DNA of 45,945 nucleotides from a virus, in IMG/VR virus record IMGVR_UViG_3300036766_000522, positions 1-45,945 of that record, one strand, 5' to 3'. Below are positions 2,829-39,740 of the stretch, piece after piece. The notes beneath the pieces are model-generated. The model was not told where the DNA came from and ran no database searches. It worked only from the letters and a program-made list of their open reading frames with translations. How positions within the stretch are numbered: position 1 is the stretch's first letter; the number at the start of each line of letters is the position of its first letter. The position numbers and the translations under genes are program-made.

Positions 2829-3224
2829 CTACCACGTGATGTACTTGCCAGCTTCGATCTCGTCCGATCGGCTGTCGTACTTCTCCATCGCATCTTCGAT
2901 ACGCTCCCGAAGGTTGTCCCTCCAGTTCTGCGTACGCTTCACGATAGGAAGCTTCCCTGACTGTAGCGGCCTGCCGTCCCGATAGAGACCGACCCGGATG
3001 GCATCACTCCCGACTCCTGCTCCTGTTTGTCCCCCATGGCCAACCGTCGTGTAGACCAGGATCGTCACACGGTCGCTCAAGGGTAGCTCGATGGCAATCT
3101 CCCCTCGAACGTTGACCTGTTTCTGAGGTTCGAGCGCATGAAACGCCCGCTTGAGGAACGTTTCCATGTCCTTGAGCGTGACCTCGGTGAACTGAATGGC
3201 CATCGCTTTGACAGGCTTGCTCAC
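2829..3224 (-). CDS. Hypothetical protein, 131 aa
   Basis: It starts at GTG 3224, whose GTGA overlaps the stop of the helicase gene, with GGAGG 5 bases upstream; this strong site favours GTG over the ATG at 3203. The protein has a predicted alpha/beta composition: a helix (VTLKDMETFLKRAF), beta strands around LSDRVTILVYTT, a glycine loop, DAIRVGLYRDGRPL, and a basic C-terminal helix with NWRDNLRERIEDA. I do not recognise a characterised family. The overlap suggests translational coupling to the helicase. Confidence 0.75.
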   Translation of the reverse strand: MSKPVKAMAIQFTEVTLKDMETFLKRAFHALEPQKQVNVRGEIAIELPLSDRVTILVYTTVGHGGQTGAGVGSDAIRVGLYRDGRPLQSGKLPIVKRTQNWRDNLRERIEDAMEKYDSRSDEIEAGKYITW

Positions 3225-6200
3225 GAAGGCCTCCGATCATAGGTGCCAGTCGAGAGGTCTTCTCCTGGGTCGTCCCCACTGGGAGTAGGTTGAAACAGAG
3301 CGATGACCGACAACCCTGGAACCCACCCCGCCATCTTGACGATAGGTTCTGGCGCAGGCTCCGGAGTCGCTTTCCCAGCCACGTTTTCACCCAAATGCAG
3401 ACCCGCTTCTTCTACGAAGATGCTCGGCTCCGAGGGGCGTCCGTTGCGATCATGCTTCGGACACAGAACCGTGAGGTCTTCCTTTGCACGAGTGAGCGCC
3501 ACGTAAGCGAGCTGGCGCTCCGTGAGAAAATCCTTCTCTCGACGCTGTTCAAGGATTTCCGCCTTCTCGGGCGTCAACATCTCCTCCCCCTTCAACTTGC
3601 GAGGGGGCATCGGGAACGTGCCTTTGGGCATCACGACAACGACGTTCTTGTACTGCGCCCCCTTCATGCTGTGAACCGTCGAAAGGGTCACACAAGGAGG
3701 CGGCAGACGCTTGGACGGGTCGGTCTGAGAAGCCTTCTGCTCCTCATCCCATGCTTTCAAATCGACGCGGAGTTCCTTCGCGTGCTCTTCCAGCTTGTCG
3801 AGATACGCCTTGAACTGCTTGGGATCGGACGGGTCGACGTCCTTTCGCATCGTTGTGGGCTGAGCCATGTGGAAGAGAAACTCGACGTTGCCGATCGGCT
3901 TCTTGTCTTCTTCGCCCTCTTCCTTCGGAGCGTCTTCCTCGGCATCCTGAGCCATCCAGGTGGGCATCAGATCATCACGAAGACGCGTCGGAGGCTTCCC
4001 ACGCTCTGCCATCCCTGTGATCGCCAAGATGTCGTTGAGCACATCGGACGTTGTGTACTTGCGCGTAGCGCCCAGCTCATCCGTCTTGGTGCCCTGCTCG
4101 ATGGCATCTTTGATGCCGTGAAGTTGGTCTCCGAGATCTTGAAGAATCTGCCGTTGTTTGGTGACCTTCCATCCCTCGTAGATCCCGGCCGCCTTGATGA
4201 TCTCGTTGATCCCTGCCGCATCGAAAAGGTCGAGAGGATTGACATTCGTACAGGACACGCCCATTTGCCGAGCCTTGGCATCGACTGCGCTCTTGATGAC
4301 GCGCTCTGCCTCACCCCCACCCCAACCGAAGAAACGCTGAGGCTTGTTGAGAGCGATTGCGAGAGCATCCTGCATCTTGGAGAAGTCTGTGCCCGACACA
4401 AGATTCATGTACGAGAGCACCGTCTGAGTCTCAGGGGACTTGAGGAAGCTCGTCCCACCCTTGCGACCGTAGGGCACACCAAGAAGTACACAAGACGTCT
4501 CAAAGTCGTTCAGTTCTTTGTTCGTGCGGGTGAGCACTGCATAGTCGGAAGGCTTCTCCCCGGCTTCGATTCCCTGAGAGATCTTCTCAACGGACCCTAG
4601 AGCCCCGCTGGCGTGGTCTGCGGGTCGTTCTACCACGACAGAAGCCTGCCCCCGAGGCTTACGGGGGTCAGGCTTCGCCTCCATCGGAATCCCACGCGGA
4701 TGGGTCGTCATGAGCTTGTTCGCTACATCGACGATCTCAGGCAAGCAACGGTAGTTGGTGCTGATGATACGGGTCTGCCACTCGGCCCCGGACTTGGCGT
4801 CCGTCTTGCCGTGGAACTGGGTGAACAACTCCGGACGCGCCCCCACGAAGGCGTTGACGCTCTGGATCTCGTCACCGACCACCCAGAGAGACTTGCCATC
4901 CTTGCCGTCCGTGACCTGCTCACTGATCATGTCGATGATCTGGTGCTGCACTTGATTGAGGTCTTGAGCCTCATCCACACAGATATGATCGTACCTGGCT
5001 TGGATCTCTTTGCGAGCACCCGGGTTGTCTCGCAGGACATCCCTGAACATGAGGATCATGTCCGAAAAGTCCCCGAGCCGGTCCTTGGGGCCCATACCCC
5101 GAAGCTTGTTGAGCCACCCCATCCAGTGTTTGTTGGCGTCATCGTTGGTGGCGACACAGGGGGGCTGCCAGTTGGGGATGATGTTCTTGTAGCCGAGGGT
5201 CCACTCGTACCACTCAGCCTGCTTTTCCTCATCGAGCCCGATGGCGTCATGCTTTGCCTGCTCGGGCGAAATGTCGTTCATCATCCACTTCTGGATGACC
5301 ACGGCTGAACCTGACGGAGGATCGTTGCGGAAGCATTCCTTCCAACAACGAGCCATGTAGCCCGCCATGGAACCCGGCGAAGGAGCCCTGGCAGGCGCCT
5401 CTTCTGCACCCTTGGACTTGCCTCGGTCGCCGCCGCCTTGGAACCATCGGGTGAGGGCTCCCTGCTGCTCCTTCGTGCCGTACTGCATGATGAACCGGCG
5501 GAAGATGGAGTGCATCGTCCCTTGGGTCATCTGCGACTTCACGTCGTCGCCCACCAACATCGCAAGACGCTCGGAGATCTCCGCCGCTGCCTTCGTGTTG
5601 AAGACGACCGCAAAGATGCGGCTCGGAGGCACGTGACGTTCCTGCACGAGATATGCAATGCGGGAGCAAAGAGCTGTGGTTTTACCAGATCCGGCTCCGG
5701 CCGCGAGGATGACCCGGCCGTCGGTCATGACAGCCTTCATCTTCTCAGGGTCATCCGCAATCGGACGAAGAGACGGAGGTACGTTTTGAAGAGCCTGAAT
5801 GGCAACTGCGGAAGTTGCGGCAGCCGTCGCGATGCCGATGGTCTCGGAACGAGTCGGCGGTACATCCGGCCGACCCGACTGCACAAGAGCCTGGGCTGCT
5901 ACTTCGGTAGCCTTGGTCTCAACCGTCTGTAGAACTGCGGCCTGGGTCTTCGAAGCTTCCGCATGCGCTGTAGAGGCCGGAGATTCAACCTCATGCACCA
6001 TGTGGGCATCACGTAGCTCCTCGGCGCTTTCACCGATTTGCTTGGCAGCTTCGTGGACAGGATTCACATCGACCTGGATGGGTTCCCCACCTGAAGTCGT
6101 AGAAGCTGCTGCCCGGACAATCCACTGCTGCAAACGCTTGTCCCGAAGAGTGATGGTCGAGAACTTTGCGAACGCTGTCGCAGCCTCTTCGACCATCGAA

Positions 6201-6631
6201 GACTCGATGGCATCGGTCACTTCACGACGAGCCCGAGTCGATGTTCCGAAGACGTGCTTGGCTGTCGTAGCACCGCCCTTGGAGAGGATGGTTCGAATAC
6301 GAAGGGCTCGAATGGACGCACCCTTCGCAGTCGGAGGGAGCCGCAGAGCGTTTTCGAGCATTCGCACCGAGCCCGGATTCGTGAGCCCGGCTTGGATGAA
6401 GGTGCCGATGCGTGCGAGGTGCTCCCGCTCCACGTTGTGGAGGAGCAACATCCCGCGTGAGAAAACCGGATCGCCGTGAGGACGCCCGGTCTCCTTCATC
6501 CAGCGCAAATACGTATCGAATGCGAGAAGGAAGACCACGTAGTCAGCGATTTGAAGCTCGCCGAACTTGAGGTCTTCCTCATCCCCCTCCGCCTTGCGCA
6601 GGGTCCCGACCCGGTCGTAGTTGAAGGTCAT
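3221..6631 (-). CDS. UvrD/Rep-like superfamily 1 DNA helicase with long N-terminal extension
   Basis: An ATP-driven 3'-5' DNA helicase by family. Motifs seen: Walker A AGAGSGKT (311-318), VVFNTKAAAEI (motif Ia region, about 342-352), the TMHS segment (about 372), Walker B VDEAQD (552-557), motif III VGDEIQSV (585-592), motif IV-V STVHSMKGAQYKNV, and motif VI VALTRAKEDL (about 1044). At 1136 residues it is longer than UvrD (about 720) because of a 300-residue N-terminal region without recognised motifs, rich in helix and alanine, and an acidic insert (EDAPKEEGEEDKK). It follows a strong terminator, so it probably begins its own transcription unit. Likely roles are replication, recombination or repair of phage DNA. 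Confidence 0.93.
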   Translation of the reverse strand: MTFNYDRVGTLRKAEGDEEDLKFGELQIADYVVFLLAFDTYLRWMKETGRPHGDPVFSRGMLLLHNVEREHLARIGTFIQAGLTNPGSVRMLENALRLPPTAKGASIRALRIRTILSKGGATTAKHVFGTSTRARREVTDAIESSMVEEAATAFAKFSTITLRDKRLQQWIVRAAASTTSGGEPIQVDVNPVHEAAKQIGESAEELRDAHMVHEVESPASTAHAEASKTQAAVLQTVETKATEVAAQALVQSGRPDVPPTRSETIGIATAAATSAVAIQALQNVPPSLRPIADDPEKMKAVMTDGRVILAAGAGSGKTTALCSRIAYLVQERHVPPSRIFAVVFNTKAAAEISERLAMLVGDDVKSQMTQGTMHSIFRRFIMQYGTKEQQGALTRWFQGGGDRGKSKGAEEAPARAPSPGSMAGYMARCWKECFRNDPPSGSAVVIQKWMMNDISPEQAKHDAIGLDEEKQAEWYEWTLGYKNIIPNWQPPCVATNDDANKHWMGWLNKLRGMGPKDRLGDFSDMILMFRDVLRDNPGARKEIQARYDHICVDEAQDLNQVQHQIIDMISEQVTDGKDGKSLWVVGDEIQSVNAFVGARPELFTQFHGKTDAKSGAEWQTRIISTNYRCLPEIVDVANKLMTTHPRGIPMEAKPDPRKPRGQASVVVERPADHASGALGSVEKISQGIEAGEKPSDYAVLTRTNKELNDFETSCVLLGVPYGRKGGTSFLKSPETQTVLSYMNLVSGTDFSKMQDALAIALNKPQRFFGWGGGEAERVIKSAVDAKARQMGVSCTNVNPLDLFDAAGINEIIKAAGIYEGWKVTKQRQILQDLGDQLHGIKDAIEQGTKTDELGATRKYTTSDVLNDILAITGMAERGKPPTRLRDDLMPTWMAQDAEEDAPKEEGEEDKKPIGNVEFLFHMAQPTTMRKDVDPSDPKQFKAYLDKLEEHAKELRVDLKAWDEEQKASQTDPSKRLPPPCVTLSTVHSMKGAQYKNVVVVMPKGTFPMPPRKLKGEEMLTPEKAEILEQRREKDFLTERQLAYVALTRAKEDLTVLCPKHDRNGRPSEPSIFVEEAGLHLGENVAGKATPEPAPEPIVKMAGWVPGLSVIALFQPTPSGDDPGEDLSTGTYDRRPS

Positions 6632-6649
6632 CTCAAGAATGTTCGTGGG

Positions 6650-6661
6650 ACAAGAGGAAAA
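6650..6661 (-). promoter_or_regulatory. 12-base intergenic motif, copy 1
   Basis: TTTTCCTCTTGT on the minus strand, 19 bases before the helicase start codon. The same 12-mer lies before the sheath gene at 11131-11142. These are the two longest gaps in the window, so a promoter or leader element is possible. No obvious -10 box is visible. Confidence 0.25.
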
Positions 6662-6722
6662 ACGGCCCTTCTGGTTCGACCGCCTCTACACCGACGGGAG
6701 AAGAAAGCCGCTCCCGAAAGCA

Positions 6723-6750
6723 AAAAACCCGCTGTTGCCAGCGGGTTTTT
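6723..6750 (-). terminator. Rho-independent terminator after the tail sheath gene
   Basis: A perfect 12-base inverted repeat (6723-6734 and 6739-6750) with a four-base loop; the GC core CCCGCTG/CAGCGGG is flanked by A and T runs. On the minus strand it reads hairpin then T-run, 28 bases after the sheath stop. It looks bidirectional by symmetry, but no gene enters from the left. Confidence 0.9.
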
Positions 6751-6777
6751 CACATCTACCGAGACGGTCTCTGATCC

Positions 6778-9700
6778 TCAGATCCTTGCCCGGAGGTTGA
6801 AGGTCAAAACCAAATACAGCAGCGGGAAGATCGGCTGGTAGAAGGCCTCGAAGTTGAGAACCGTCGGGTCGCTCGGGTCGATGGCCGACGAGATCCCCGT
6901 GAAGGCTCCGATGATCTCCGCCAGGATGAGCTGCTTGAAGAGGGACGTCATCGTGACGTTGACCTCGTTCGTACGGCCCGCCAAGAACTTCGTTCCCACG
7001 AAGTTGTCGAGCGCCTGACGCGACTGCTGCTGCACGAAGTCGGCGATCTGAGTGACCGTCGGCAACCTGGTGAGCACCGACGCCATGTTGGTCGTGAGCC
7101 CCTGCCGGATGCGGACGAGCTGCGACAGATCTTCGAGGATCGTGATGCCCTTCACGGCAGTCTGGTTCGCCTCGATGGGATCGAGGACACGCGGAATGCG
7201 TGTGAACCCTTGGATCCGACGGCGCGTGTAGGGCGTCGCCACATCCACCGTGGGGGAGACAACAGCACCGGAGACCGCAGCCGCGAAGAAGCTGCCGTCC
7301 ACGAGGCTCTCGAAAGCGTTGCCCAGTTCGTCCGTCAAGGTGATGACTGCCGAGTCCGGGTAGAACGCCACGATGCGGTTCGACACGAGAGCTTGCGCAA
7401 CCGCTTGAGCTGTCGTGGGAGTGGTACCCGACGCAAACCCGATGAAGCCCATCCGCTCCGCTTGGTTTTGCGGAAGCGATTGGGTTTCACAGTGCTGCGT
7501 GAGGAAGGCGTAGACCGCCGTCGAAGTCGCGAGAGGCACGATGATGTCCGGCTTGATGTTGCCGGGCAACGGCATCGCGAGATCTTGGATCGCCGTGATG
7601 AAGCTCGAATCCGAGGCCTGGTTCGTGTTAGGAACCTTGAGCACCTGCTTGATCCCAACGATGAGTGCCCCGTTAAGGATCGCGAGGTAGGCCGCGAGCG
7701 AGACCCGGTTTGTCGCCGACACGACGCCGAAGTTGGCTTCGATCGTCTTGAGCTGGCGGTAGAGCTGGGCCGAGAAGTCCTGCTTCAGGAACTGGTAGCT
7801 GATGTAGTAGAAGTCCCCGATGGCAGGCTCGACACCCGCAGGGTTGAACGTCTGCACCGTGCCGGTGTCGTTCGGGAAGACCCCCACAGTGTTCGAAACC
7901 GTGGTTTCGAGGCCGCCGATGGCGTACCAAGGACGGCTCGGATCGACCAGGAAGGTCGGGCTCACCGACAGGGTGAAGCTGCCCGCAGGCGAGTAGCTTC
8001 CTGTCGAGGCCGGAAGCACCGTGAAGCGAAGCCCTGTCCTTGAATCCGTGTAGGTCTGGCCAGGAATACCAGTGCCTACCGAACCCGCAGGGTTGTTCGA
8101 CGTGACCGCGTAGTTCTGCTGCGCGTCCTCGCCGTTGTCCCCATCGGTACCTGGCGTGATGCCGATACCCGTTGTCGTGTTGAAAGCCGAGTTCGCTGCA
8201 TTGGCGAACCCAACACTCGATGTGGCGGCCCCGACCGTGATAGACTCGAACGTGATATAGTTCTGTCCGTTGATCAGGTCGACGTAGCAGAAGCCATCCG
8301 TCGTAAAGCCCGCAGTCGCCATCAAGACGTCCACGATCTCTTGAGACGTGACGAGAACCTGGCTGGCTGCCTGGTTCTGCGTGAACCCAAGCACCGCATT
8401 CGCCGTCCCATCGAGGATGAGGATGGCGCTTGTGCTGTCGTTCACCTGGCTTGTGAGACGAACCTTGTTGAGGTTCGTAAGCGTACCGACCGATGCAGTT
8501 GCAGGCGCGAGCCCCGGAACCGCATTGATGGCACCCACGACAGCGGCAGCAGTGACCGCCGCCCCTGCCGGGAGCTGCACCTGGTAGTCCACGCCGTTGA
8601 CGCGAACCTTGAGGATATCGTTGAGGCCGTTCGTGATATTGAACGGACCTGCAAGCGACCCGAGAAGCGTTGCAGCCTTGTTGATCGCCCCAGGCGTCCC
8701 GAGGGCCGACTGGAATGTCCTGAAGCCGAGGGTTGCTTCTCCCGTGCCCTGGTTGATGCGAACCGACGAGACGGAGTCGAAGCCACCGGGGAGAGCCCCA
8801 GGTGTTGTCGCGCTCGTGATCGTGAAGATGTAATCGCCCGTTGCAGGACCGATCTGGAGGAAGGCCGCTACGCCGTTCAGAAGGAGAACAGCGTTGATCT
8901 GGCCGATGATGAACGTCGCCGTCTGGTTACCCGTCGTGAGGGTGACCGGATACACAACGCCATCGACGTTGATGTTGAGAACGTTCGCACCGACCTGAAC
9001 GTTGATCTTCCCCGCATCGGGACCCGACTGAATCGGCGTGACATGTCCCGAGACGACGATCGCCGGAGCTGCTGTGTTGAGGTTCGCCGTGATCGTTGCG
9101 GCATTGAACTTCTGAGTCCAGGTCGCCGAGTACGGCGAGAAGAAGCTGTACGACTCAGGATTGCGGTTCGTGAACACCGCGTTCGTTGCCGGAGAAGATC
9201 CGAACGTCACCGTCACCAACTCGGAAACGGCTGCCCCAGCACCCGTGTGGAGAGCATCGGGAATGGTCTCCACACCACGGGGCCACTGCACGGTCTGTGC
9301 AAGACCGGACTTGGTACCGAACCGAACCTGCAAGAGGTTCTTGTTCTGGATGCCAGAGAAGACCGTGTACTGACCCGATCCGACCGGACCCGGCACCGTG
9401 TTCGTGAAGATGTAGGTGTCGTCCTCAATCCGGCTGTAGAAAAACGTCGCGAAGACGGTCCAATCAGGCGGCAGAGGATCCTTGAGAGTGATGCGACGGT
9501 TCGTGCCGTCGACCGCGATGACCTTTGCGGCCGGACGCCCAAGAGCGTCACGGAGCGTACGACCGACACGAGCCACGATGAGATCCGGACGGTTCGTGGT
9601 GAGATCCTGACGCCCGTTGGTGACCGACTGGTAGAGCGTCAGACCGAGAGTCGTATCGCGCCCGTTGCCCGTTGTCGGCACCTCGGGGAGGAAGAAGTCC

Positions 9701-16480: not shown

Positions 16481-17425
16481 TCAGGTCTGGGAAGGCCGAC
16501 CCATCGTACGGGGATGCGGGATGCCGAACTCTTGAAGGTAGCGATCGATTGTGGTGTGAGACTGCCCCAACTCCTTCGCCATACGCCTGATGGGGACACC
16601 TCGGCTCGCCATCTCCCGAAGAAGCTCCTCAGGCAACGCCTTCCTGACCTGATAGTGGGCTCCCTGGAAGCCGAAATTCAGCTTGTACTGCATGCACTCA
16701 GGCATGTGCGGCTTCACCAAGGAAATGAACAAGTGGGCCTGATCCTCTCCTTCGAAGATAAAATCTCCTGTGTTGCCTTTGCGAGGAGCCCAACGTGGTT
16801 TGAGGCTGAATTTGGCGAAAATCTCGTAGGCGATTTCTAGACTCCGGGCGTTCATCCCGAACGTGATGTGGGGCCACCACTGGGCTGAGCCGTCGTCCAG
16901 GAACCACACCGCGAGAGCAAGCGCATCTACATAGTCCTTGATCTTGGCATCGAGACGCTTGGGGCCGCTCTCATCATAGAAGAGGGTCTGCCACTTGTTG
17001 AGACTCTGATGACTGACCGTGTGAAACCGCCACCCAGGGAAGTCCCCCGCCTCAGTGTGCCAGATGACCGGTTTCATGGGCTCTTTCACCCAAACACCCC
17101 ACTCGGAAAGCTTCCATCCGAGATACTTCTTCTGCGCCTCAGAATGATTCTCCTGATACCGGGAAGCATTCACGGTACGGGAAAGCCGACCGTCCCCCAA
17201 CATAGAGCCGACCAGAATAGACCGTAGGCGCCCTTCAATGGGCAGGACTTCATGCCGGTCGGTTCGACCAATGGTCTCGATACCAAAGTGGTGCCTCCAC
17301 GAACGGACTCGTTTGAGAGTAGCGCACTTGCCTAGGTACTCGACGATGGCTTCGTCCGTGAGCTTCTCTTCGAGGTAAAGATGACGGAGTTCTTCGTGAG
17401 GAATAGGACATTGAATGCGCTTCAT
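16481..17425 (-). CDS. LAGLIDADG homing endonuclease, free-standing
   Basis: The 314-residue protein has two LAGLIDADG-type motifs, ILVGSMLGDGRL (about 69-80) and ALAVWFLDDGSAQ (about 169-181). The acidic residues D78 and D176/D177 would be catalytic, so a single chain could fold as a pseudo-dimer and cut a long asymmetric site. An N-terminal segment (EEKLTDEAIVEYLGKCATLKRVRSW) and a C-terminal segment (VPIRRMAKELGQSHTTIDRYL) both look like helix-turn-helix modules. It is not inside an intron or intein that I can see. It sits just past the capsid terminator with an AT-rich leader and no clear ribosome-binding site, consistent with insertion of a mobile gene. Confidence 0.85.
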   Translation of the reverse strand: MKRIQCPIPHEELRHLYLEEKLTDEAIVEYLGKCATLKRVRSWRHHFGIETIGRTDRHEVLPIEGRLRSILVGSMLGDGRLSRTVNASRYQENHSEAQKKYLGWKLSEWGVWVKEPMKPVIWHTEAGDFPGWRFHTVSHQSLNKWQTLFYDESGPKRLDAKIKDYVDALALAVWFLDDGSAQWWPHITFGMNARSLEIAYEIFAKFSLKPRWAPRKGNTGDFIFEGEDQAHLFISLVKPHMPECMQYKLNFGFQGAHYQVRKALPEELLREMASRGVPIRRMAKELGQSHTTIDRYLQEFGIPHPRTMGRPSQT

Positions 17426-28418: not shown

Positions 28419-30236
28419 CTAGAAGCGGCTGTCGGGTTCGCCTTCGGGCTTCTGCGGGTTGAGCTTGAGGTACTTGACGATCTTGTCGGTGACGTCCGTG
28501 CTGTCCACGATCTTCTGCCCAACGGCACCGTAAACCCCGCGCATGACCTCGTTGAACGTCGAGTCGTTCACCGTAAACATGTCCTTTTCGAGCTTCACGC
28601 GTGTGTCGTGAGGGTCGATATTGAACATCTCCAGAATGAGGTCGATCGAGATCGAGCCCTTCTGGTAGAGATTGAACAGCGCGTCGTACGTGTCCTGGCT
28701 GTCCCGAAGGGGCAAACGCGTGAAGGACAAGCGCGGGAAGAGAACCTCTTCGTCCCCCCACTCGTCCGTCTCTACGAAGCCCTTTCGTCGCGCCACGGGC
28801 TTGAAGAGGTACTCCTCAACATATTCTTGGAGCATCTCGCGAAGGAACATGTACCGCGTGTTGATCACTTCGAGCTTGAGACGATCCCCCGAGTAGAGAG
28901 ACTCACCAGAGAGCAAGCTCTCAGTGACCCCGAGCCCGGCATGAAGCTGCTTGTCCGTGATCTCATACTCGCTGGATAGGTCGAGAAGACGGTCTTTCGA
29001 CCCCATCTCCTCCCAGTGGACTTCGTAGTTGGCGACGATGGAGTAATCAGGATCGACGAGGGAGAGGTCGACCTGCTCCCGTAGGTCATCCACGTCAACC
29101 TCGCTGATATCCTCAGCCCAGACGATCCGCTTCGGAGTCATCGCACGGCTTGCGATCTGAGTCTGTGCCTGACGGAGCTTCTCACGGTAGTAGAGCGTTC
29201 GTAGGCAGCGATCGAGGATGCTCTGACCTAGCTCTTCTCCCGCACCCTTGCGGCCTGCCAACGAGTAGACGAACGATCCCTCATCGGGATCGACACCAAG
29301 AGGGATGAGACGACCGTTTTCGAGATGCTCCCGAACCTCTTCGGGAATCTCTTGCGACATCTCTTCGGCGACGGGATCTCCCTGCTTCGCCTGTTCGATG
29401 AGCGAACGATCTCGATCCGAGGGGATCAGCTCAACGCGCGTTTTGTCCGTGAAGGAGAACGAAGTGACCTTCACTTGGTCGATCGGGAAGATGATGAGGC
29501 GGGACCACCCTTGGTAGTGCTTCTGGTAGTGCGCCAGCTCCTCTTCTTCGCGGTTGTTCTTCTCGACCCACTGCTCTTCTTGGTGCTCAACCGCCTCCCC
29601 CTCCTCGGTGAGAACCGATTGCTGGATGAGCTGACGGCTGTGGCCTACTTCTGCCGGGACTTGAACCTCAGAATCCTCGGCGAAGATGTGGATCGTACCG
29701 TCGAGCCAGTAGTGGTGGACCGAGGTGATGAGCCGCTGAAAGAGCTTGATGCGTTTGCACATCTTCTCGAAGAACGAAAGGATGTACCGGCCATAGCTGT
29801 CAGCATCCTTGAACCCCTTGGGATGCGTACGGGGCTTTGGAGCTGCCAAGCGGACCTTCGACATCGGTAGCTCCGTATGGAGATCGATGGCTTGGCCGAC
29901 GATGGGATCTGTGTTGTAGAAGTGCCGGTAGATCTCACGCTTCTCGCGGAGGCTCTGCGGCAGTTCGAGAAAGTCGGTCGAGAGCTGAGGCGAAAAGAAG
30001 CTCGACGTGCCCGACGTCACGGTATTGGCGCCAGAAATCGGATCGACGGCGAACCCATCTGCGGTACGCATCCGATGCCGCTCTTGGCGTGCCCGCCGTT
30101 CATTCGGCGTGAGCGGCATGATTCGCTGCCCGTTTGGCCCCTGGGACACGTACGGCGACGTATGCCGCATGTTGGACAGGTGTTGGACTGTCCCCAATCC
30201 GAGAGTTCGGGTGTTCGTGTAGCTACCGTTGGGCAT
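28419..30236 (-). CDS. Portal protein
   Basis: The portal forms the dodecameric gate at the capsid vertex and connects the packaging motor and neck. Evidence in the 605 residues: the N-terminal SLREKREIYRHFYNTDPIVGQ, whose last part matches the usual portal phrase about a repeated visit to the non-contiguous D.iv..AID. HTELPMSKVRL follows, then a central wing with acidic linkers, the QIASRAMTPKRIVW clip/stem region, and the C-terminal crown with LRDSQDTYDALFNLYQKGSIS and LILEMFNID. Length is in the normal 450-700 range. It starts at ATG 30236, overlapping the previous gene by 14 bases. Terminase lies a few genes upstream, as expected. Confidence 0.85.
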   Translation of the reverse strand: MPNGSYTNTRTLGLGTVQHLSNMRHTSPYVSQGPNGQRIMPLTPNERRARQERHRMRTADGFAVDPISGANTVTSGTSSFFSPQLSTDFLELPQSLREKREIYRHFYNTDPIVGQAIDLHTELPMSKVRLAAPKPRTHPKGFKDADSYGRYILSFFEKMCKRIKLFQRLITSVHHYWLDGTIHIFAEDSEVQVPAEVGHSRQLIQQSVLTEEGEAVEHQEEQWVEKNNREEEELAHYQKHYQGWSRLIIFPIDQVKVTSFSFTDKTRVELIPSDRDRSLIEQAKQGDPVAEEMSQEIPEEVREHLENGRLIPLGVDPDEGSFVYSLAGRKGAGEELGQSILDRCLRTLYYREKLRQAQTQIASRAMTPKRIVWAEDISEVDVDDLREQVDLSLVDPDYSIVANYEVHWEEMGSKDRLLDLSSEYEITDKQLHAGLGVTESLLSGESLYSGDRLKLEVINTRYMFLREMLQEYVEEYLFKPVARRKGFVETDEWGDEEVLFPRLSFTRLPLRDSQDTYDALFNLYQKGSISIDLILEMFNIDPHDTRVKLEKDMFTVNDSTFNEVMRGVYGAVGQKIVDSTDVTDKIVKYLKLNPQKPEGEPDSRF

Positions 30237-30714: not shown

Positions 30715-31272
30715 TCACATCGTGACTTGGATGCCAAGCCAGAACTCGTTCACGGCCTTCGGAGTCTGAGCAACTACCCCTGTCGGAATCGCCGGAGCAA
30801 ACGGCGATGCAGAAAGAGTCAGCTCGTCTTCCTTTGTCCAAAGTCCCCGTAGAGAAAAGTAGAGACGATCCTCGGGGGTATAGACAAGAGCCACCAAAGG
30901 CGGCACAAGACGGCTTGCATACGTGTACCGCTCATAGGTGCTCGTCGAGATGAGAGGGCTTCCGTAGACCATCAGGGCGTACTGGTACGTGGGCTGCTGC
31001 CGCGTCATCGCCGTGTACTGATCTGCGGATTCATCCGAACCCCAAATGAGGAACCCTCCCCACCGACCATCGGAATAGGTGACGATGGGCTCGTTGATGC
31101 CCGAATTGGTCCAGCGAACGCCTTGACCCCCCGGCCACCCACTCGCCACCATCGCTTGATCGATGACAGGAGTGAACGTCTCTCCCTTCGACCACAAGAT
31201 GCAGTCGCGAGAGCGGATCATGTCGATCCCCTGGAAGTCGATGACGAAAGAACCTACGGGAGGCGGAAACAT
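30715..31272 (-). CDS. Tandem paralogue A, beta-rich structural protein
   Basis: First (5'-most in the DNA, last transcribed) of three neighbouring paralogues. At 185 residues it carries an extra N-terminal MFPPPVGSFVIDFQGIDM before the shared start (IRSRDCILWSKG). Shared signatures: ASGWPGGQGVRW, GGFLIWGSDESADQYTAMT, a YERYTYASR segment and YFSLRGLWTKEDEL. The sequence is beta-rich with many aromatic residues and lacks catalytic motifs, which fits a virion surface or connector protein. Function unknown. It starts at ATG 31272, three bases after the stop of paralogue B. Confidence 0.8.
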   Translation of the reverse strand: MFPPPVGSFVIDFQGIDMIRSRDCILWSKGETFTPVIDQAMVASGWPGGQGVRWTNSGINEPIVTYSDGRWGGFLIWGSDESADQYTAMTRQQPTYQYALMVYGSPLISTSTYERYTYASRLVPPLVALVYTPEDRLYFSLRGLWTKEDELTLSASPFAPAIPTGVVAQTPKAVNEFWLGIQVTM

Positions 31273-31275
31273 GGT

Positions 31276-31797
31276 TCACCCTCTCCGCAGAGTCAGGTAG
31301 TTGTTCGTGACCGAACTTGGGATCGATATGACAGTTCCAACGATCCAGTCGTTTGGCGCACGCGGATCCAACGAAGCTGTCCACTCATCTTCATTCGTAA
31401 AGAGACCCCGGAGCGAAAATCGCAGCTTCTGTCCAGGCACGTAGACGTTTAGCACGAGCGGGCCTCCTTGTCGGCTCAGCCACGTGTACCGCTCGAAAGA
31501 CGACGTAGAGAAGACCCATCCGGCTCCGACACAGAGCACCCCGAACTTGTACCCGGGCTGGTTCCCCGTATACGAGATGAACTGATCGCTTGTCTCGTTC
31601 GAACCCCAAAGTAGGAATCCCCCAAGGGGGCCATCCGAGTATGTTACCTTGAAAGTATCGCTAGTCGGAGAATCGATCCACTGGACGCCCTGCCCGCCAG
31701 GCCATCCTCCCACCGCCATGGCGTTGTCGACCATCACAGGCAACGTCTTGCCTTTGACGAAGACCACCACATCGCGAGTGCGGAAGATTTCCGTCAC
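31276..31797 (-). CDS. Tandem paralogue B, beta-rich structural protein
   Basis: The 173-residue middle copy of the triplet starts at GTG 31797, whose GTGA overlaps the stop of paralogue C. It shares IFRTRDVVVFVKGKT, NAMAVGGWPGGQGVQW, GGFLLWGSNETSDQFISYTG, SFERYTWLSR and RFSLRGLFTNEDEW with its neighbours. The C-terminus (VIGTVISIPSSVTNNYLTL by pattern) differs most. No known domain. The overlap and near-equal size suggest a recent duplication maintained at similar expression. Confidence 0.8.
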   Translation of the reverse strand: MTEIFRTRDVVVFVKGKTLPVMVDNAMAVGGWPGGQGVQWIDSPTSDTFKVTYSDGPLGGFLLWGSNETSDQFISYTGNQPGYKFGVLCVGAGWVFSTSSFERYTWLSRQGGPLVLNVYVPGQKLRFSLRGLFTNEDEWTASLDPRAPNDWIVGTVISIPSSVTNNYLTLRRG

Positions 31798-32291
31798 AAG
31801 GCCACCTGAATCGTCATGTACCCGTTGCGCGAAGACGAAGGGATTTGCGCAACAAATCCTGTCTTCTCATCCAGCGGGTCTTCTTTCTCGTTCGTCCAGT
31901 AGCCCCGAAGACTGAAGTAGAGAGGGTCGTTCTCCGTGTAGACAATCGACACGAGCGGACCTGGATGGGTGCGCGAAAAAAGTGTGTACTGCTCGTAGGT
32001 AGGAGTCATGATGATCCACCCTGAGAAGCCGATGACAACGAACTTGTAGGCAGGCTGGTTCCGGGTCATCGCCGTGAACTCATCCGGCACTTCATCCGAT
32101 CCCCAGAGGCAGAATCCGGCCACTTCTCCTGCCGAAAGGTCCACAAGGAACCCATCTGTGGTCGATGCCGCCCATGCAACGCCCTGCGCACCCTTCCACC
32201 CACTGACCGCCATAGCGTCAGTGATGGAAACCGTCGTTGTTCTGCCCTTCTGCAAGACAACGCAGTCTCGGGTGCGGAAAAGCTCAGGCAT
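31794..32291 (-). CDS. Tandem paralogue C, beta-rich structural protein
   Basis: The 165-residue first-transcribed copy starts at ATG 32291, directly after the stop of the 84-residue gene. It shares LFRTRDCVVLQKGRT, DAMAVSGWKGAQGVAW, GFCLWGSDEVPDEFTAMTRN, YEQYTLFSR and YFSLRGYWTNEKED. The three copies differ mainly in loops, so they may form a hetero-oligomer or bind alternative partners. No enzyme motif. Position between terminase and portal is typical of head or connector genes. Confidence 0.8.
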   Translation of the reverse strand: MPELFRTRDCVVLQKGRTTTVSITDAMAVSGWKGAQGVAWAASTTDGFLVDLSAGEVAGFCLWGSDEVPDEFTAMTRNQPAYKFVVIGFSGWIIMTPTYEQYTLFSRTHPGPLVSIVYTENDPLYFSLRGYWTNEKEDPLDEKTGFVAQIPSSSRNGYMTIQVAL

Positions 32292-32576: not shown

Positions 32577-34586
32577 TCATCGACTCCGATAGCGCGCACC
32601 AGGATTCCTGGGTGCCACCCGATCGCTGATCCCACCGTGACGTCGAGCCCGTACCGACTGGTAACGCGCCAAGGTCATCGAGTTCGCTCCGTGAACCCCC
32701 TGGCCTCCGGCACCCATGATATGCTTGCCGGTCACCATTCGTCGAGCTGCAAGCCACACAGAACGTACGAAAGCATCAGACATATCATCGTGGTTGCCTG
32801 CGGCTTCGGGGGCCGCAACCACGATCATGTTCTTCGAAGCCTGCTCCGCCTGAAGTGTGAGAAGCTCCTTGATGAAGGGGGAGTGCTTGGATGTCGTGTT
32901 TCCGGTCAACGGGTAGTCGTAGAGAACGATCTTCTCGTCGAACATCATCAGCTTGGCATTCTGGTAGATGCGGCTTGAGAGATCTTTCGTGAAGAACTCT
33001 GCCTTGAACTGGTTCAAGCCCGCCTTGTTGAGCGCCTGCTCCAACGGGATACCGTTCCATCGGTCGAAGATCCCATCCGCGATGTAGAAACGCTTCGTAA
33101 GAGCGATAATCCACTCCGCAATGGCGTCGAAGTCGAGCCTCTCTTGATCCTTGAGCTTCCGAGCATAGTCCGTCGAATACTCATTGGCTAGGTGGGGATT
33201 CGACTCGCGCCAGTCGACTCCCGCGTACCACGTTTCATGGTAGTCGAGAACGATTTTGTCGGCCTCACAGTGCGTGATGAAAATAGACGTCCCGTCTCCG
33301 ATGAGTCCCACGTCGATCCCCATGTGGTGGGGGTAACGAGGAATGCCGATCGACTTGGGACGCAAACCCTCATCGATGCACGCCAGCAGGTCGGCTTCAC
33401 GCTCGATCCAACCACGAACCCGATCACTGAACTGCGCACCATGCTCCGTCATGAAAGCAGACGGGTCGGCGTGGTACTTCTGCCGATAATAGTTGGTCTC
33501 GATCGTCGGATTCACCTCCCAGGTCGGCGCCTGGATGGCGATCATATTATCTGCGCCTTCTCCTCGGGCCATGGCCTGATTGTAGAGGTCGTAGAACTTG
33601 CCCGCCTTATTCAGCGGCGACGAGATACAGATGACCCTGGACTCGACTCGACCAATCGGCTGTGTTGAGTCTTTGGGATTCTTCGGCGAGAAAGCAGCGG
33701 TCGAAGGAGTAACCGCATCGTAGATCTCCTTTGCCGACGACCCACCTTCATCCTTGAAGTGGGCCATCTCATCTAGGATGACGACGATGTTACCGGAGCC
33801 ACGGAGACCCTTTGCGATACAGCTCTTGAACGTGACGCGGAGGGTGGCTTTGCCGTTGAAGCTTGTGAACTTGCCGTTCTCATGACGGATAGTACCGCCG
33901 TACCGCTCGATATCGTGCGGAGTTCGGAACTGGATGTAGCTCAGGGTGTTGTTTGCGATGAACGGCTTGAAGTACTCACACCGGCTCAAGTGGCTGGTCA
34001 CCTCGTTGAAAAGGATGCTTGCCTGATCCTTATCGGTTGCGATTGAGACGATCTGGATACGGTTGCCGGGCGGAAGACCGTAGTACCCTTGGGGGTGATT
34101 CAAGTTCAGAAGCCGGTAGACCTCATAGCTCGCAAAGATGCCGCTGAGGGTTGTTTTTCCGGCCCTCCGACCTATGGCCAGCAACAGATCTCGACGTTCG
34201 TGATCCTGCGCTCCGATGTTGCACCGACCCTCACTAAAGAGATAGTGCAAGTACTCTACTTCCGTGAAACGGTAGAGTACTTGGGTGTTGAACATGTCCG
34301 TGATCTGGATGGTCTTTTCACGGTCATTCAACGGTAGGTGGTAGTAGAGCTTGACGATGAAGCGCTGTACGGGGAACAGGCGCATCCCCAAGCCCCATTC
34401 CGACTCGATGTAGTCGAGAATGCTGAAAATCCTCGGTCGAATCGGAGCAGGGATATTCCCCGACATCTCATCCAGGATGTCGGGGACTGCTTGTTCTATT
34501 TGGATCTGGGAAGCTCTCTGCCCGGCCTCACGAATGAGACCTGCAACCCCCGGCCCGTATGTTTTTCGCTTGACAGGAGCAGCCAT
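32577..34586 (-). CDS. terL: Terminase large subunit (packaging ATPase and nuclease)
   Basis: The motor that cuts and pumps phage DNA into the prohead. In 669 residues: Walker A IGRRAGKTT (138-146), Walker B IVVILDE (267-273, with catalytic E273), coupling motif VICISSPLNKAGKF (318-331), and an RNase H-like nuclease with GIDVGLIGDGTS (423-434, D425), an acidic residue near ADGIFDRW (503-510) and NHDDMSDA (598-605). All key residues are present. Length is slightly above the common 450-650. The start is ATG 34586, three bases after the stop of the AT-hook gene. Location beside the candidate small subunit and before the portal is the usual order. Confidence 0.96.
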   Translation of the reverse strand: MAAPVKRKTYGPGVAGLIREAGQRASQIQIEQAVPDILDEMSGNIPAPIRPRIFSILDYIESEWGLGMRLFPVQRFIVKLYYHLPLNDREKTIQITDMFNTQVLYRFTEVEYLHYLFSEGRCNIGAQDHERRDLLLAIGRRAGKTTLSGIFASYEVYRLLNLNHPQGYYGLPPGNRIQIVSIATDKDQASILFNEVTSHLSRCEYFKPFIANNTLSYIQFRTPHDIERYGGTIRHENGKFTSFNGKATLRVTFKSCIAKGLRGSGNIVVILDEMAHFKDEGGSSAKEIYDAVTPSTAAFSPKNPKDSTQPIGRVESRVICISSPLNKAGKFYDLYNQAMARGEGADNMIAIQAPTWEVNPTIETNYYRQKYHADPSAFMTEHGAQFSDRVRGWIEREADLLACIDEGLRPKSIGIPRYPHHMGIDVGLIGDGTSIFITHCEADKIVLDYHETWYAGVDWRESNPHLANEYSTDYARKLKDQERLDFDAIAEWIIALTKRFYIADGIFDRWNGIPLEQALNKAGLNQFKAEFFTKDLSSRIYQNAKLMMFDEKIVLYDYPLTGNTTSKHSPFIKELLTLQAEQASKNMIVVAAPEAAGNHDDMSDAFVRSVWLAARRMVTGKHIMGAGGQGVHGANSMTLARYQSVRARRHGGISDRVAPRNPGARYRSR

Positions 34587-34589
34587 AAA

Positions 34590-35282
34590 TTACCGAAGAG
34601 CGTCCTCGGCCTTGTCCTCCCAACCGGTCATCTTCGTCTCGAAACAGTTGAAGAACAGGTTGAGGGTTTCGGGCTGCATCGTCTCAGCAGCCGCCTCTTG
34701 AATGAACTCGATGAAGAGCTTGATGACACGCTGGAACTTCTCGCTCCGCACATCGATGATCCCAGGACCGATCTTGTTGATCTCCAGCTCGATGTGGGCG
34801 ATCTTGGTGAGCGCGTCGATGCGGCGGGTGCTTGTCTGAGACGTGTCCCTACCGAACTTTTCGTTCTCGATACGCTGGAAGTGAAGAGCTGCCGCCTCTT
34901 TGGCAATCTCACTGCGGAGCTTGCGTAGAAGGTCGGGAGCATCGATCTTTCCCGAAGTAGCGATGACCACCGGATCCTCGGTGATGAACTTCGCTTTCTC
35001 CTCGGACATCTTCCCGTGGTATTCCAGGTCGGAAGTCGTCGGCATGGTCTCGACCTTTCGAGGCCGCCCCCGCTGCCGTGTGACTTTCAACGTGCCGCCA
35101 CCTGCCCCACGCTTCGGAGCTGCATGGACAGGTAGGAGCTGACGAACGTTGTCTGGCGTGCTTTCCGACTGGTCTTCGGGGTCATCTCCCTCGATCGGAT
35201 CGGAATCGTCCACAGGCGCGAGGTTCTCGACCTCGGGCTCAGACGTGCCTTCCGGGGCGTCGGGGATTTCGTTGGTACTCAT
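34590..35282 (-). CDS. AT-hook protein, candidate small terminase subunit
   Basis: The 230-residue protein has an acidic, disordered N-terminus (residues 1-50) and a canonical AT-hook core RQRGRPRK (69-76), which binds the minor groove of AT-rich DNA. A helical C-terminal half follows (LLRKLRSEIAKEAAALHFQ; RRIDALTKIAHIELEI; KLFIEFIQEAAAETMQ). Small terminase subunits are helical, bind packaging-site DNA and sit directly upstream of the large subunit, as here. The call rests on position and the AT-hook; the protein is not recognisable as a known small-terminase family. Confidence 0.6.
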   Translation of the reverse strand: MSTNEIPDAPEGTSEPEVENLAPVDDSDPIEGDDPEDQSESTPDNVRQLLPVHAAPKRGAGGGTLKVTRQRGRPRKVETMPTTSDLEYHGKMSEEKAKFITEDPVVIATSGKIDAPDLLRKLRSEIAKEAAALHFQRIENEKFGRDTSQTSTRRIDALTKIAHIELEINKIGPGIIDVRSEKFQRVIKLFIEFIQEAAAETMQPETLNLFFNCFETKMTGWEDKAEDALR

Positions 35283-35294
35283 GATCTCACCTTC

Positions 35295-35705
35295 TTACTT
35301 CGTCTTCTCGCCAACCGCTTTTGCACTACCCCCACCCTCCGTACGAACGAGGTACTGGGAGAGATTGGAAACGGCATCATGACCCTTGTCGTGCCGAATC
35401 TGGTCTCGCGTGACAGCTTCCATGTCCTGGTATGTCGAAGCATCCCCAGGCCACCCCCGTCGCGCGTAGTTCAAAACAGCCATGTTCTTGGGCTTCGGTG
35501 AAAAGACATCCTCGGGTCGGATATCTGTGTGAGAGGGAGGGACTGTTTCGTCGTGGGTCTCCTCCGTCTTCACATAATCACGAAGCGTCTCTCGGCTCAT
35601 CCCACGTGCGCGGTTGATTGGCTGCGTGAGACGTTGAGCCTCTTGCCGTAACCCCTTCGATTCGAGGTAACGAGCCGCTACCCTGCACGCAAGACGATCG
35701 TTCAC
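35295..35705 (-). CDS. Hypothetical protein with RVAARYL N-terminal motif
   Basis: The 136-residue protein starts at GTG 35705, overlapping the stop of the cysteine-module gene. Its N-terminus MNDRLACRVAARYLESKGL shares the R-V-x-A-R-aromatic-L pattern seen at the starts of two small genes at 41393-41941 and in the giant protein. The rest is polar and probably loosely folded, with KDYVKTEETHDE-like and DMEAVTRDQIRHDKGHDAVS segments. No function is recognised. Confidence 0.65.
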   Translation of the reverse strand: MNDRLACRVAARYLESKGLRQEAQRLTQPINRARGMSRETLRDYVKTEETHDETVPPSHTDIRPEDVFSPKPKNMAVLNYARRGWPGDASTYQDMEAVTRDQIRHDKGHDAVSNLSQYLVRTEGGGSAKAVGEKTK

Positions 35706-37978
35706 AGCTTCAGCCCTTGCCCTCCAGTGCCGAACTCGATCCCGATCTCGTTGGCAACCCTGGGCTCATCGACTTCGATCGCTCCCGTACCATGTTGAAT
35801 CTCGTACTCGGCCATCATCGACATGCCGTTGTTGACGAGATTGTTGAAATTGATCTCGGTCGACCGCCCCGAGGCAAGTACCTCACGCTGTTGTAGGGAC
35901 TTGTCAAAGTAGGGGGGATCTTGAACGAGCGCCTTGTTGATGACTGAACAGAAACCCGTTCGCGTCTGGTGAACACAACTCCCGCACTTGGAGCCGATCT
36001 TCACGTACTCGACCCCACCGCTTCGGTGAAGACGCGATGCCTCTTTGCATCCCTTGCCATAGTCATCGTAGACCGTCGGGTCGACATAGTAGACGCCTTG
36101 GAGACCTTGCTCCCCAAGGACCGAGCGAAGGTCCCCGGCTGCCGCCACGATGTCCCTGGACTCGAACCGTCCCTTGAGAGCGAACTTCAAATCCTCGCCG
36201 TAGAGCCCCTCGTTGAGGAACCGGCGAGCCATCTTGAGGATCTCTCCCCGTGTGATCGACGACGTGCGGTGCTCGGTCGTGCTTCCATAGAAGCCCTTCG
36301 CCATCGACTGCGAATGATGAACCACAGGAAGGTTCTTCGGTTCGGTGGTGAAGTGCAGGAACTGAAGCGCCTCGACAGGCGTCTTGCCGAAGTCGGCCGA
36401 CTGACGGTCATCCCATGCAGGAAGACGCCCAGCCACCTTGTGCTCGGCAACGAGCGCCTTGACCGTATCCTCAGTGAGAATCTCGTTGGCCTCCTTAACG
36501 AGCGGTTTGCCGTACATGAGGCAGCGGCCGATCTTGTTGTAGATGCAACCACCACACTTCTCTCCGGCCACCACCACCTTCACGCCAGGATTGTACTTCG
36601 CGAGGAAGTCTGCTCCCACGTGACAGTCCGAGAACGAATCCTGGGTTGTGTAGACGACTCCGTACGCCCCCATCTTCCGAATGACGGGCTCCCAATGCTC
36701 CTTCGTTGCCGCAAGGTCATCGGGCGAGAAAGAAAGCTTCATCGCGTTCGCGACATCCATGGGATAGCGACCCTTGAGCATCTCGCGTCGGATGATGGCG
36801 ATGACAGGCTCCGCCTTCTTGGCAGAGAGCATCCGTTGCGTCTCTTCGTCCCGCTTCTTCGTGAGACCCGAAGCCGCGATGAGTTGCTGATCGGCCTTCT
36901 CTTGTGAAACCGCAGCCATGGGGGCCTGTTGCCCAACCCCTGCGTACATCCGCTGGGGCTCGGGCTCGATCCCCAAAGCCTTCGCACGGATCATTTCGAT
37001 CGGAGCAGGCTCGGTCGCCATGCCGATGATGCGATACGCTTGCTGGGCGGCTTGAACGTTGATCTTTCCCGATTGAAGGGCGGACCCGACTGCTGCCTTC
37101 GCCGTCTCCTTGAAAGGAGTGAGATCGAGAGGCTTTACGAAGTCGGCCTCCGTGGTGCCTCCTTGCCGCATGAGACGCGCAACGTTGTCCTTCGGCTGGG
37201 GCATGGGCGACGGACCGGGCGCCCTGAAGTCATCGGCCAGCATGGCAAGACGAATGCGCTCCTTGGGCACGCTCGCCGTCACCGTAAGCTGCTTGCCCTT
37301 CGCTTGCTGCATCCGTTCGACTTCGGCCGCGAGGCTGTCCGTCATCGGAACTTCGACTTGGATCTCCTTGTGGAAGACAGAGCACGTCTCTCCCGACTGA
37401 TGTTCGTGCGCGTGAGCACATCCCGAGCATTCGGGTTTCGCGACGATGAACCGGGCGTCCCTCGCATAGCGCTTCACGAAATCCGAAGGCTTCGCCGACC
37501 CCGTGTGGCAAGTCGGGAAATCCGACGCGTTGATGTAGAGCTTCCCGAGCAACCCACGCTCAGCGATCACATCCGCGATGACGTTCTTGGCCGCATGGAG
37601 GCTATCCATGTCGTACCGGCTCGTCAGAGCATTCTTGAGCCGTTGAAGATCCGACGATTGCATGAGCGCGAATCGAGCGGTCTTCCGAATGTGCTCGGGG
37701 CTCGCACGCAAATGCCCATGGGCCTGACTCATATCCCCCATCGTGTGAGGATTCCCCATGCCACGAACGGACTCGACCGGAGTCACGTTCGGAATGAGGT
37801 AGTTCGTCGGGCTCTCTCCCTTGTGCGCCCACATGGCTTCCAGATCGGGAGCCACGTTGAGGTTCTGCTTCGGCAGTGTATCGTTTGCACGGTACTCCGC
37901 CTCGTCGACTTCGAGCCAGTCGAGATTCGAGACCGCACCCTCTCGCAGGAAGCTGCTGATGTCGCCTAGATCCGCCAT
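35702..37978 (-). CDS. Protein with triplicated four-cysteine module
   Basis: 758 residues from ATG 37978, preceded by AGGAG; the frame is open further upstream but overlaps the previous gene. Three copies of a roughly 110-residue module occur at about 95-205, 390-495 and 578-685. Each has a helical half (R..m..g.y..dl..al...fs..di.aA) and a GL.GvvY strand. Next come a cysteine, a CxGC or CGxC pair and a fourth cysteine: C157/C184/C187/C199, C452/C475/C478/C486, C644/C665/C668/C677. Four cysteines per module suggest a zinc or iron-sulphur site. Between copies the linkers are Pro/Gln/Ala rich. I do not know a named family. It lies upstream of the terminase in transcription order and could be a virion or internal head protein. 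Confidence 0.8.
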   Translation of the reverse strand: MADLGDISSFLREGAVSNLDWLEVDEAEYRANDTLPKQNLNVAPDLEAMWAHKGESPTNYLIPNVTPVESVRGMGNPHTMGDMSQAHGHLRASPEHIRKTARFALMQSSDLQRLKNALTSRYDMDSLHAAKNVIADVIAERGLLGKLYINASDFPTCHTGSAKPSDFVKRYARDARFIVAKPECSGCAHAHEHQSGETCSVFHKEIQVEVPMTDSLAAEVERMQQAKGKQLTVTASVPKERIRLAMLADDFRAPGPSPMPQPKDNVARLMRQGGTTEADFVKPLDLTPFKETAKAAVGSALQSGKINVQAAQQAYRIIGMATEPAPIEMIRAKALGIEPEPQRMYAGVGQQAPMAAVSQEKADQQLIAASGLTKKRDEETQRMLSAKKAEPVIAIIRREMLKGRYPMDVANAMKLSFSPDDLAATKEHWEPVIRKMGAYGVVYTTQDSFSDCHVGADFLAKYNPGVKVVVAGEKCGGCIYNKIGRCLMYGKPLVKEANEILTEDTVKALVAEHKVAGRLPAWDDRQSADFGKTPVEALQFLHFTTEPKNLPVVHHSQSMAKGFYGSTTEHRTSSITRGEILKMARRFLNEGLYGEDLKFALKGRFESRDIVAAAGDLRSVLGEQGLQGVYYVDPTVYDDYGKGCKEASRLHRSGGVEYVKIGSKCGSCVHQTRTGFCSVINKALVQDPPYFDKSLQQREVLASGRSTEINFNNLVNNGMSMMAEYEIQHGTGAIEVDEPRVANEIGIEFGTGGQGLKL

Positions 37979-37988
37979 CTCATTCTCC

Positions 37989-39740
37989 TCACGAGAGATC
38001 CTGCTTGGGATACGGCCCCTGAATTGGGTCGCGTTGGTAGTTGTAGTCGGGGCGCATGTTGTGGGTGTCGTCGTCCCATTTGACGTACGGTTGGTCGCCA
38101 TGCTCGACCCGATCCCCGAGGTTTGGCCCGAAGTCCTTGCCGTACTCATAGACGGAGTTGGACTCGTCTCCGGGTAGCTCTCCCGTAGCCGCAAACTCAT
38201 GTTCGTAGAGATGACTCGGACGAGCTTTCGTAGGAGCTTCGGGCTGAGGGGTGTTCCCACCCGGCAACTTGGCCTGTCCGTGGATCATCACATCGAAGTC
38301 GTTGCCCTTCGGTCCGGCGTAGTAATCCGAACGTGCCACAGGCTCATCTGTATCGTTGGGGAGTTCTCCCGCAGCATTCAGAGTGAACCCAGGAACGAGG
38401 TCGACCCACGTGACGATCTTCTTGGAAGCGGTGTTTACAGGGAGACCCATGTGACCCGTCTCCGAGATGCTTTTCTCGATCACAGGATTGCTATCCGACT
38501 CAGGATCTTTGGTCGCGCCCCCAGGGTCGTCCGGCAACTCCGCTTGCGGACCGTAGACGCCCCGATCGCCCTTGTTGCCAGGAGAACCTGGATTCCCTTG
38601 CCCGTAACCGCCTGCTCCTTGCCCGTGAGCATCGTTGCCGTTGCCGTCGCCAATCCCGAAGTCGTATCCTTGAGTAGGAGTCGACTCCGAGTTCGAGTCG
38701 GGGACACCTGATGCCGCATCCTTAAGAGGAAAGTGCATGGCCTCCGGCCAATTCCCACGACCTGCACTCTTGCCTGAGAGATCGGCATTCCATTCCGAAG
38801 GATAGGAGTAGCTGTCCCCCTCGTTCTGACTCATGGGCTCGCCAGAAACGCCGCCCGACTCGCCCCAGCTATCCTGAACGGGCTGCTCATCCTGGTTGTA
38901 CGAACCCCCAGGCCCTGTCTGATCCGAATCCCCTCGGTCGAGGTGTTGTACTCTCGGACCCCCGGGCTCGTTTTGGGGGGAAAGAGTGCTGTTCGCTACC
39001 CGACCATAGGAGTAGCAGGCATCAAGCGAAGCCTGCTTGTTCCGACGGTTCTCAGGATGGTCTTCAGCCGCAGGATGAGGCCCTTGCGACGGAAGCGTTT
39101 CCTTGTCTCCACCGGACGGGAGCTTCGAGCCGAAACCATGCTCGTCATCGAAGCGCTTCTTCTTGGCATTCGACCAAGGCTTCTTCTCGACGGTCTCGGC
39201 CTCTTCGTCGGCTTCCTCGTCAGGATTGTCGATCCAGTCCTCGGCATCCCCAAGAAGTCGCTCGACCTCATCCATGTCGTGCTTTTCGAGTTCCGCGATC
39301 TTGGGCTTCCAGTGCGGAGCGTTGATCTCGTCATGGAGGGTGTCACAGAGCGACGAAAGCTGCTCGCACGCCTCGAAGAGGTTTGCCCGAACATCCTTGA
39401 CCGGAAGCACGTAGCCCCGACCGCCCAAAAGACCGTCGGGAGAGAACGTCGAAGACTTGAGACGGCTGAATGCCCGATGAGCCGTCAGAGCATGACCCAG
39501 GGCGACGCTCATCGCCCAAAGGGTCTTGACGATCGGCTTCACCGCTTTCTTGTCGAACTGATGATCGACCGGGATCTGACGCTTCGTCGGAGTACCCGGA
39601 GACGGCTTCGAAAAGGGATTTTCGTCCCCTTCCTCTGCTCCGAAAGCGGGCTTCTTGAAGCTGTTTTTGGCAGCCACACGAGCGAAGCCTTCCCGAGCAT
39701 CTTCGGACAGGCGAATCGAGGTCTTACGGCGGGCGTCCAT
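37989..39740 (-). CDS. Low-complexity hypothetical protein, 583 aa
   Basis: It starts at ATG 39740. The N-terminal 160 residues include two helical stretches (PIVKTLWAMSVALGHALTAH; NLFEACEQLSSLCDTLHDEI) and then an acidic segment (NPDEEADEEAETVEKK). The remaining 380 residues are rich in Gly, Asp, Asn, Pro and Ser (for example GDGNGNDAHGQGAGGYGQGN), with repeated LPDD/LPND/LPGD/LPGG phrases. It looks mostly disordered and may coat or link virion parts. No domain is recognised. Tandem gain of the LP(G/N/D)D phrases is possible. Confidence 0.7.
   Translation of the reverse strand: MDARRKTSIRLSEDAREGFARVAAKNSFKKPAFGAEEGDENPFSKPSPGTPTKRQIPVDHQFDKKAVKPIVKTLWAMSVALGHALTAHRAFSRLKSSTFSPDGLLGGRGYVLPVKDVRANLFEACEQLSSLCDTLHDEINAPHWKPKIAELEKHDMDEVERLLGDAEDWIDNPDEEADEEAETVEKKPWSNAKKKRFDDEHGFGSKLPSGGDKETLPSQGPHPAAEDHPENRRNKQASLDACYSYGRVANSTLSPQNEPGGPRVQHLDRGDSDQTGPGGSYNQDEQPVQDSWGESGGVSGEPMSQNEGDSYSYPSEWNADLSGKSAGRGNWPEAMHFPLKDAASGVPDSNSESTPTQGYDFGIGDGNGNDAHGQGAGGYGQGNPGSPGNKGDRGVYGPQAELPDDPGGATKDPESDSNPVIEKSISETGHMGLPVNTASKKIVTWVDLVPGFTLNAAGELPNDTDEPVARSDYYAGPKGNDFDVMIHGQAKLPGGNTPQPEAPTKARPSHLYEHEFAATGELPGDESNSVYEYGKDFGPNLGDRVEHGDQPYVKWDDDTHNMRPDYNYQRDPIQGPYPKQDLS

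Follow-up and report, generated by a model that had tools for sequence, protein, structure and literature searches.

A triple four-cysteine module protein encoded upstream of the terminase gene in uncultured huge phages

The window, meaning the whole stretch of DNA analysed here, is a complete IMG/VR virus record of 45,945 bases (IMGVR_UViG_3300036766_000522) and probably represents part of a longer phage genome. On its minus strand, at positions 35702-37978, it carries a gene for a 758-residue protein that is conserved in about 83 contigs. The reading frame opens with an ATG at 37978, and the sequence GAGGAG lies at 37990-37985. All 12 cysteines of the protein fall into three sets that fit the pattern C-x(20-26)-C-x2-C-x(7-11)-C, each within a module of approximately 115 residues, and there are no cysteines elsewhere. 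We refer to these units as four-cysteine (C4) modules.

Module 1 (residues 92-214; 37337-37705) carries cysteines 157, 184, 187 and 199, module 2 (residues 384-500; 36479-36829) carries cysteines 452, 475, 478 and 486, and module 3 (residues 572-692; 35903-36265) carries cysteines 644, 665, 668 and 677. An earlier note made from the DNA letters had recognized the three copies of this unit, and the spacings it gave between the first and second cysteines (27, 23 and 21 residues) and from the pair to the last cysteine (12, 8 and 9) are exact; the strand of the gene, minus, was not given there. The GLxGxxY strand and preceding helices that it described are likewise seen in the modules. Ahead of module 1 is an acidic N-terminal tail (residues 1-91; 37706-37978) that is predicted with low confidence but includes the conserved segments DLDWLxVDxxxYR...LPKQNL...PDLEALW. 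Modules 1 and 2 are separated by a partly helical linker (residues 215-383; 36830-37336) with stretches of pLDDT below 50, and this linker is shorter in many relatives.

The surrounding genes, all on the minus strand, support the setting in a structural operon that had been proposed for this locus. Directly upstream of the C4 gene is gene U (37989-39740; 583 residues), a conserved neighbour. On the other side are a small conserved gene, S (35295-35705; 136 residues), and a second conserved gene, A (34590-35282; 230 residues), which encodes a weak AT-hook-like motif and lies just upstream of the gene for the terminase large subunit, TerL (32577-34586; PHROG 2, E 6e-22). The portal protein gene follows at 28419-30236 (PHROG 16240, E 5e-28). 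The conserved order is thus X (at 40019), V (39744), U (37989), the C4 gene, S (35295), A (34590), TerL and, after further genes, the portal.

Several other features of the window merit description. The portal protein is related to gp14 of Bacillus phage G (26% identity, E 3e-40) and to the portal of Tunturiibacter phage Tunturi_5 (36%). Between TerL and the portal are three tandem paralogous genes on the minus strand (30715-31272, 31276-31797 and 31794-32291) whose products of 165-185 residues match one another with pairwise E values of 1e-44 to 1e-47, and which are present in most relatives. A gene resembling those of homing endonucleases, which matches both LAGLIDADG and HNH, is located inside the structural region (16481-17425, minus strand), and a 1136-residue DNA helicase is encoded at 3221-6631 on the same strand (PHROG 1967, E 7e-71).

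A scan with an alignment of all three modules, together with follow-up scans, placed relatives on roughly 83 different contigs in IMG/VR, of which 27 exceed 200 kb and the largest is 529 kb; both contig counts were made by hand from the list of loci. Scanning viral contigs with the single protein alone gave no matches, so the three-module profile was needed, and a 15-row mixed module alignment proved too diverse as a query. In GenBank, one record carries a relative, the 485-kb genome of an uncultured phage (LR745208.1). No relatives were found in cultured phages or in the prokaryote genome contigs scanned. Most relatives have three modules and some have two, with module 2 absent or degraded in some cases, and in 15 whole records the module is confined to this one gene. 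The profile used to count modules has cysteine columns, and cysteine-free modules are therefore probably undercounted. The two largest scans for relatives, by comparison, used peptide patterns devoid of cysteine, so the conservation of cysteines among those relatives is not a product of the search.

In all 81 loci with room for it, TerL is found downstream of the C4 gene on the same strand, with a median gap of about 1 kb. Membership of the proposed family can be described by this location upstream of TerL (81/81 loci) and by C4 modules that match our A8 profile, with the pattern C-x(20-26)-C-x2-C-x(7-13)-C. A homologue of U is directly upstream of the C4 gene in 74 of 76 loci. In one of the two exceptions the reading frames overlap (L007). 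In the other (L052; IMGVR_UViG_3300031576_000001, positions 2992-6534), U and the triple C4 protein form a single reading frame of 1181 codons, which suggests that the two proteins act together, although this fusion is seen on a single contig and could be an artefact of assembly or sequencing.

The resemblance among the three modules is well beyond chance, in agreement with the earlier proposal that one unit was duplicated into three copies. Smith-Waterman scores for the module pairs range from 91 to 114, compared to maxima of 52-59 in 2000 shuffles (Z-scores of 14-18). Profiles that represent each of the three modules across the family, built from 18 relatives per module, also match one another with E values of 2e-14, 7e-18 and 5e-16 and probabilities of 98-99%. 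In a quick tree of 167 modules, the copies cluster by their place in the protein rather than by genome. Specifically, a branch with good support separates the second modules of three-module proteins from the rest, and the clustering of first and third modules is far above that obtained with shuffled labels. Judged by this clustering of module sequences, the triplication appears to be old and to have taken place before most of the family spread.

AlphaFold2 models are consistent with separately folded modules. For the whole protein (58-row alignment), the modules are predicted with pLDDT values mostly of 92-97, whereas several stretches of linker and tail fall below 50 and the overall pTM is 0.37. 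This combination of ordered modules, disordered linkers and low whole-protein pTM suggests that the modules behave as independent beads. Module 3 modelled alone (127 rows) reaches a pLDDT of 93 and a pTM of 0.85. Its predicted order of elements is four helices, a strand, a short helix that starts after the first cysteine, a second strand, the CxxC turn and further strands, and the order is identical in all three predicted modules. Fold searches with the whole model and with the modules returned no matches with E below 0.1 among PDB structures and viral models.

Sequence libraries also provide no established relative. Neither the protein nor its module matches any family in Pfam, NCBIfam or PHROGs, which agrees with the earlier remark that no named phage family is known to have this layout. 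The best PDB sequence match is the zinc-ribbon ribosomal protein eL42 (8ip8 chain WA), but this is a short likeness around the CxxC turn and the last cysteine that is not significant (E 0.03), and the single first cysteine of the C4 module has no counterpart in eL42. Given this E value and the fold search without a match, we rejected an identity as an eL42-type zinc ribbon. Full-text literature searches found no described cysteine-rich or zinc protein at this gene position. The moraphages, for example, are described as having T4-type core genes, and the text mentions neither zinc nor cysteine (PMC12619734). The protein and its module are therefore undescribed in the libraries and literature searched, and they belong to a huge-phage lineage. 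Repeated small four-cysteine metal-binding domains in a structural protein are nevertheless of a generally familiar kind.

The relative in LR745208.1 (414835-416262) is unannotated and unstudied, and it occupies the same place upstream of a TerL that is 48% identical to that of the window, in a genome whose portal is 50% identical. It aligns over its full length and has C4 module 3, but overall identity is 23%, module 1 lacks its cysteines and module 2 is not recognizable. Bacillus phage G, a megaphage with a related portal, encodes gp7 between TerL and the portal. A very weak viral fold match to it was also obtained (E 3.6). We considered this protein as a positional homologue and rejected it; gp7 has two cysteines only, and a sensitive profile detects no C4 modules in it. 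By eye, phage G gp7 (6287-9079 of our locus L129) seems to include three extended internal repeats in which cysteines are nearly absent and which are apparently unrelated to C4 modules. Tunturi_5 has a related TerL and portal, but no similar gene is annotated in the vicinity of its TerL, and tblastn gave no match.

The C-terminal part of 177 modules was inspected, and at least four cysteines are present in 165, zero or one in nine, and two or three in only three. Module 3 retains all four in 57 of 58 aligned relatives. For module 1, 50 rows of the 58-row alignment have either zero or four aligned cysteines, compared to a shuffled mean of 26.5, a figure in which the kinship of the rows is uncontrolled; several of the rows scored as zero for module 2 in the same alignment reflect a module that is missing altogether. 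Loss or rearrangement of the cysteine set is most frequent in module 1. In four relatives (L020, L021, L057 and L072) one ligand is lost and a new cysteine appears by the pair to give CxxCxxC, in L099 the loss is accompanied by an extra cysteine on the other side of the pair, and in L033 and L109 a ligand is lost and a replacement appears beside the pair. In L022 and L028 the second cysteine is an arginine and a new His-His is present beside the pair. In six others (L034, L036, L039, L040, L042 and LR745208) the entire cysteine set is gone while the remainder of module 1 is kept.

Four Cys or His ligands that are retained or lost together, as expected of a zinc domain, and that can be relocated, indicate a single metal site per module. 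The relocations also lend indirect support to a site in which the four ligands would lie near each other. On these patterns of substitution, the case for metal binding by the C4 modules is strong, and that for zinc as the metal is moderate. The earlier note had judged that the unit looks metal or iron-sulphur binding; the metal part of this reading stands, whereas a cluster appears possible but less likely than zinc. A [4Fe-4S] or [2Fe-2S] cluster would let the protein sense redox state or carry electrons during infection or packaging, and there are four cysteines per module to hold it. One to three of 127 modules give sporadic weak hits in Pfam, to HIPIP, Fer2_BFD and Fer4_11, but all matches to HIPIP, Fer2_BFD and Fer4 families are below the curated cut-offs, with a best E of 0.0043 in two of 127 modules. 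In addition, the exchange of a cysteine ligand for arginine along with the gain of His-His (L022 and L028) is a swap better suited to zinc, modules persist in the absence of the site, and no redox partner was found among the adjoining genes. CxxC pairs with a distant single cysteine are also common in zinc sites. Consequently, we consider this explanation quite unlikely, and redox sensing, one of the roles suggested earlier, has no evidence in its favour.

An even number of cysteines in every module and none free elsewhere would also suit disulphide bonds that cross-link the virion. However, phage assembly occurs in the reducing cytoplasm, and the C-x2-C turn, relocated single ligands and replacement by histidine suit a metal site, leaving disulphides very unlikely. 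The persistence of some first modules without their cysteines suggests that the metal is dispensable in some beads. The relatives constitute a small natural experiment on the loss, relocation and retention of a metal site with four ligands across repeated domains.

Residues conserved across the modules are Gly, Leu, Tyr, Phe, one Glu, one Lys and the cysteines, and the modules are mildly basic (median net charge of +2 to +3.5). The only point in favour of an enzyme, such as the nuclease raised in the earlier note, is that some nucleases are generally associated with Cys4 sites. The conserved positions include no acidic cluster or other catalytic residues, no enzyme families are matched in Pfam, NCBIfam or PHROGs, and the PDB fold search found nothing, such that we give an enzyme hardly any weight. 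The structural character of the conserved positions, the mild charge and the lack of enzyme signatures instead favour a multivalent, zinc-stabilized protein of the tether or scaffold type.

The main rival to this reading is a DNA-binding packaging accessory, either a small terminase or a helper, whose helices and metal site would bind DNA and bring the genome to TerL. The fixed place about 1 kb upstream of TerL and the mildly basic modules are in keeping with such a role, although a DNA-binding domain would be expected to carry more charge. Among TerS families there is a single weak match, to TerS_N in one member (L112; E 0.003), and isolated weak TerS or Lsr2 PHROG matches occur, but these involve single members, lie below the cut-off and are expected from so many comparisons. 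Moreover, the neighbouring gene at 34590-35282, with its AT-hook-like motif, would fit such a role just as well. We therefore regard a DNA-binding accessory as unlikely, though it deserves attention.

Our preferred interpretation, to which we assign roughly even chances, is that the C4 protein, stabilized by zinc and built like beads on a string, has a structural or assembly function in the head and DNA-packaging module of a lineage of huge tailed phages. Each module would consist of four helices and, after them, a small alpha/beta part, whose loop-rich C-terminal region may be held together by one metal ion, most likely zinc, bound by the four cysteines. Three such rigid beads on flexible linkers, flanked by acidic disordered tails, would make a probable multivalent binder or tether in head assembly or packaging, presumably working with the product of gene U. 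We infer the identity of the metal, presence in the virion or procapsid, the tethering role and the partnership with U, and a virion or packaging role rests on gene position. Adjacency to TerL is not proof of presence in the virion; huge phages such as Tunturi_5 also carry non-structural genes among structural ones. The role in virion stability entertained in the earlier note is compatible with the data.

A bolder and doubtful possibility is that the module represents a novel fold for metal binding that arose within this huge-phage lineage, and that the triple-module protein is an essential core component of the head or packaging machinery without a counterpart in model phages. In its extreme form, the metal sites would sense the redox or metal state of the cell and gate packaging or ejection. 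The C4 protein represents an undescribed family that consistently adjoins TerL across a widespread lineage of uncultured huge phages. Its gene can therefore serve as a marker, and the protein may help to explain the construction of very large heads.
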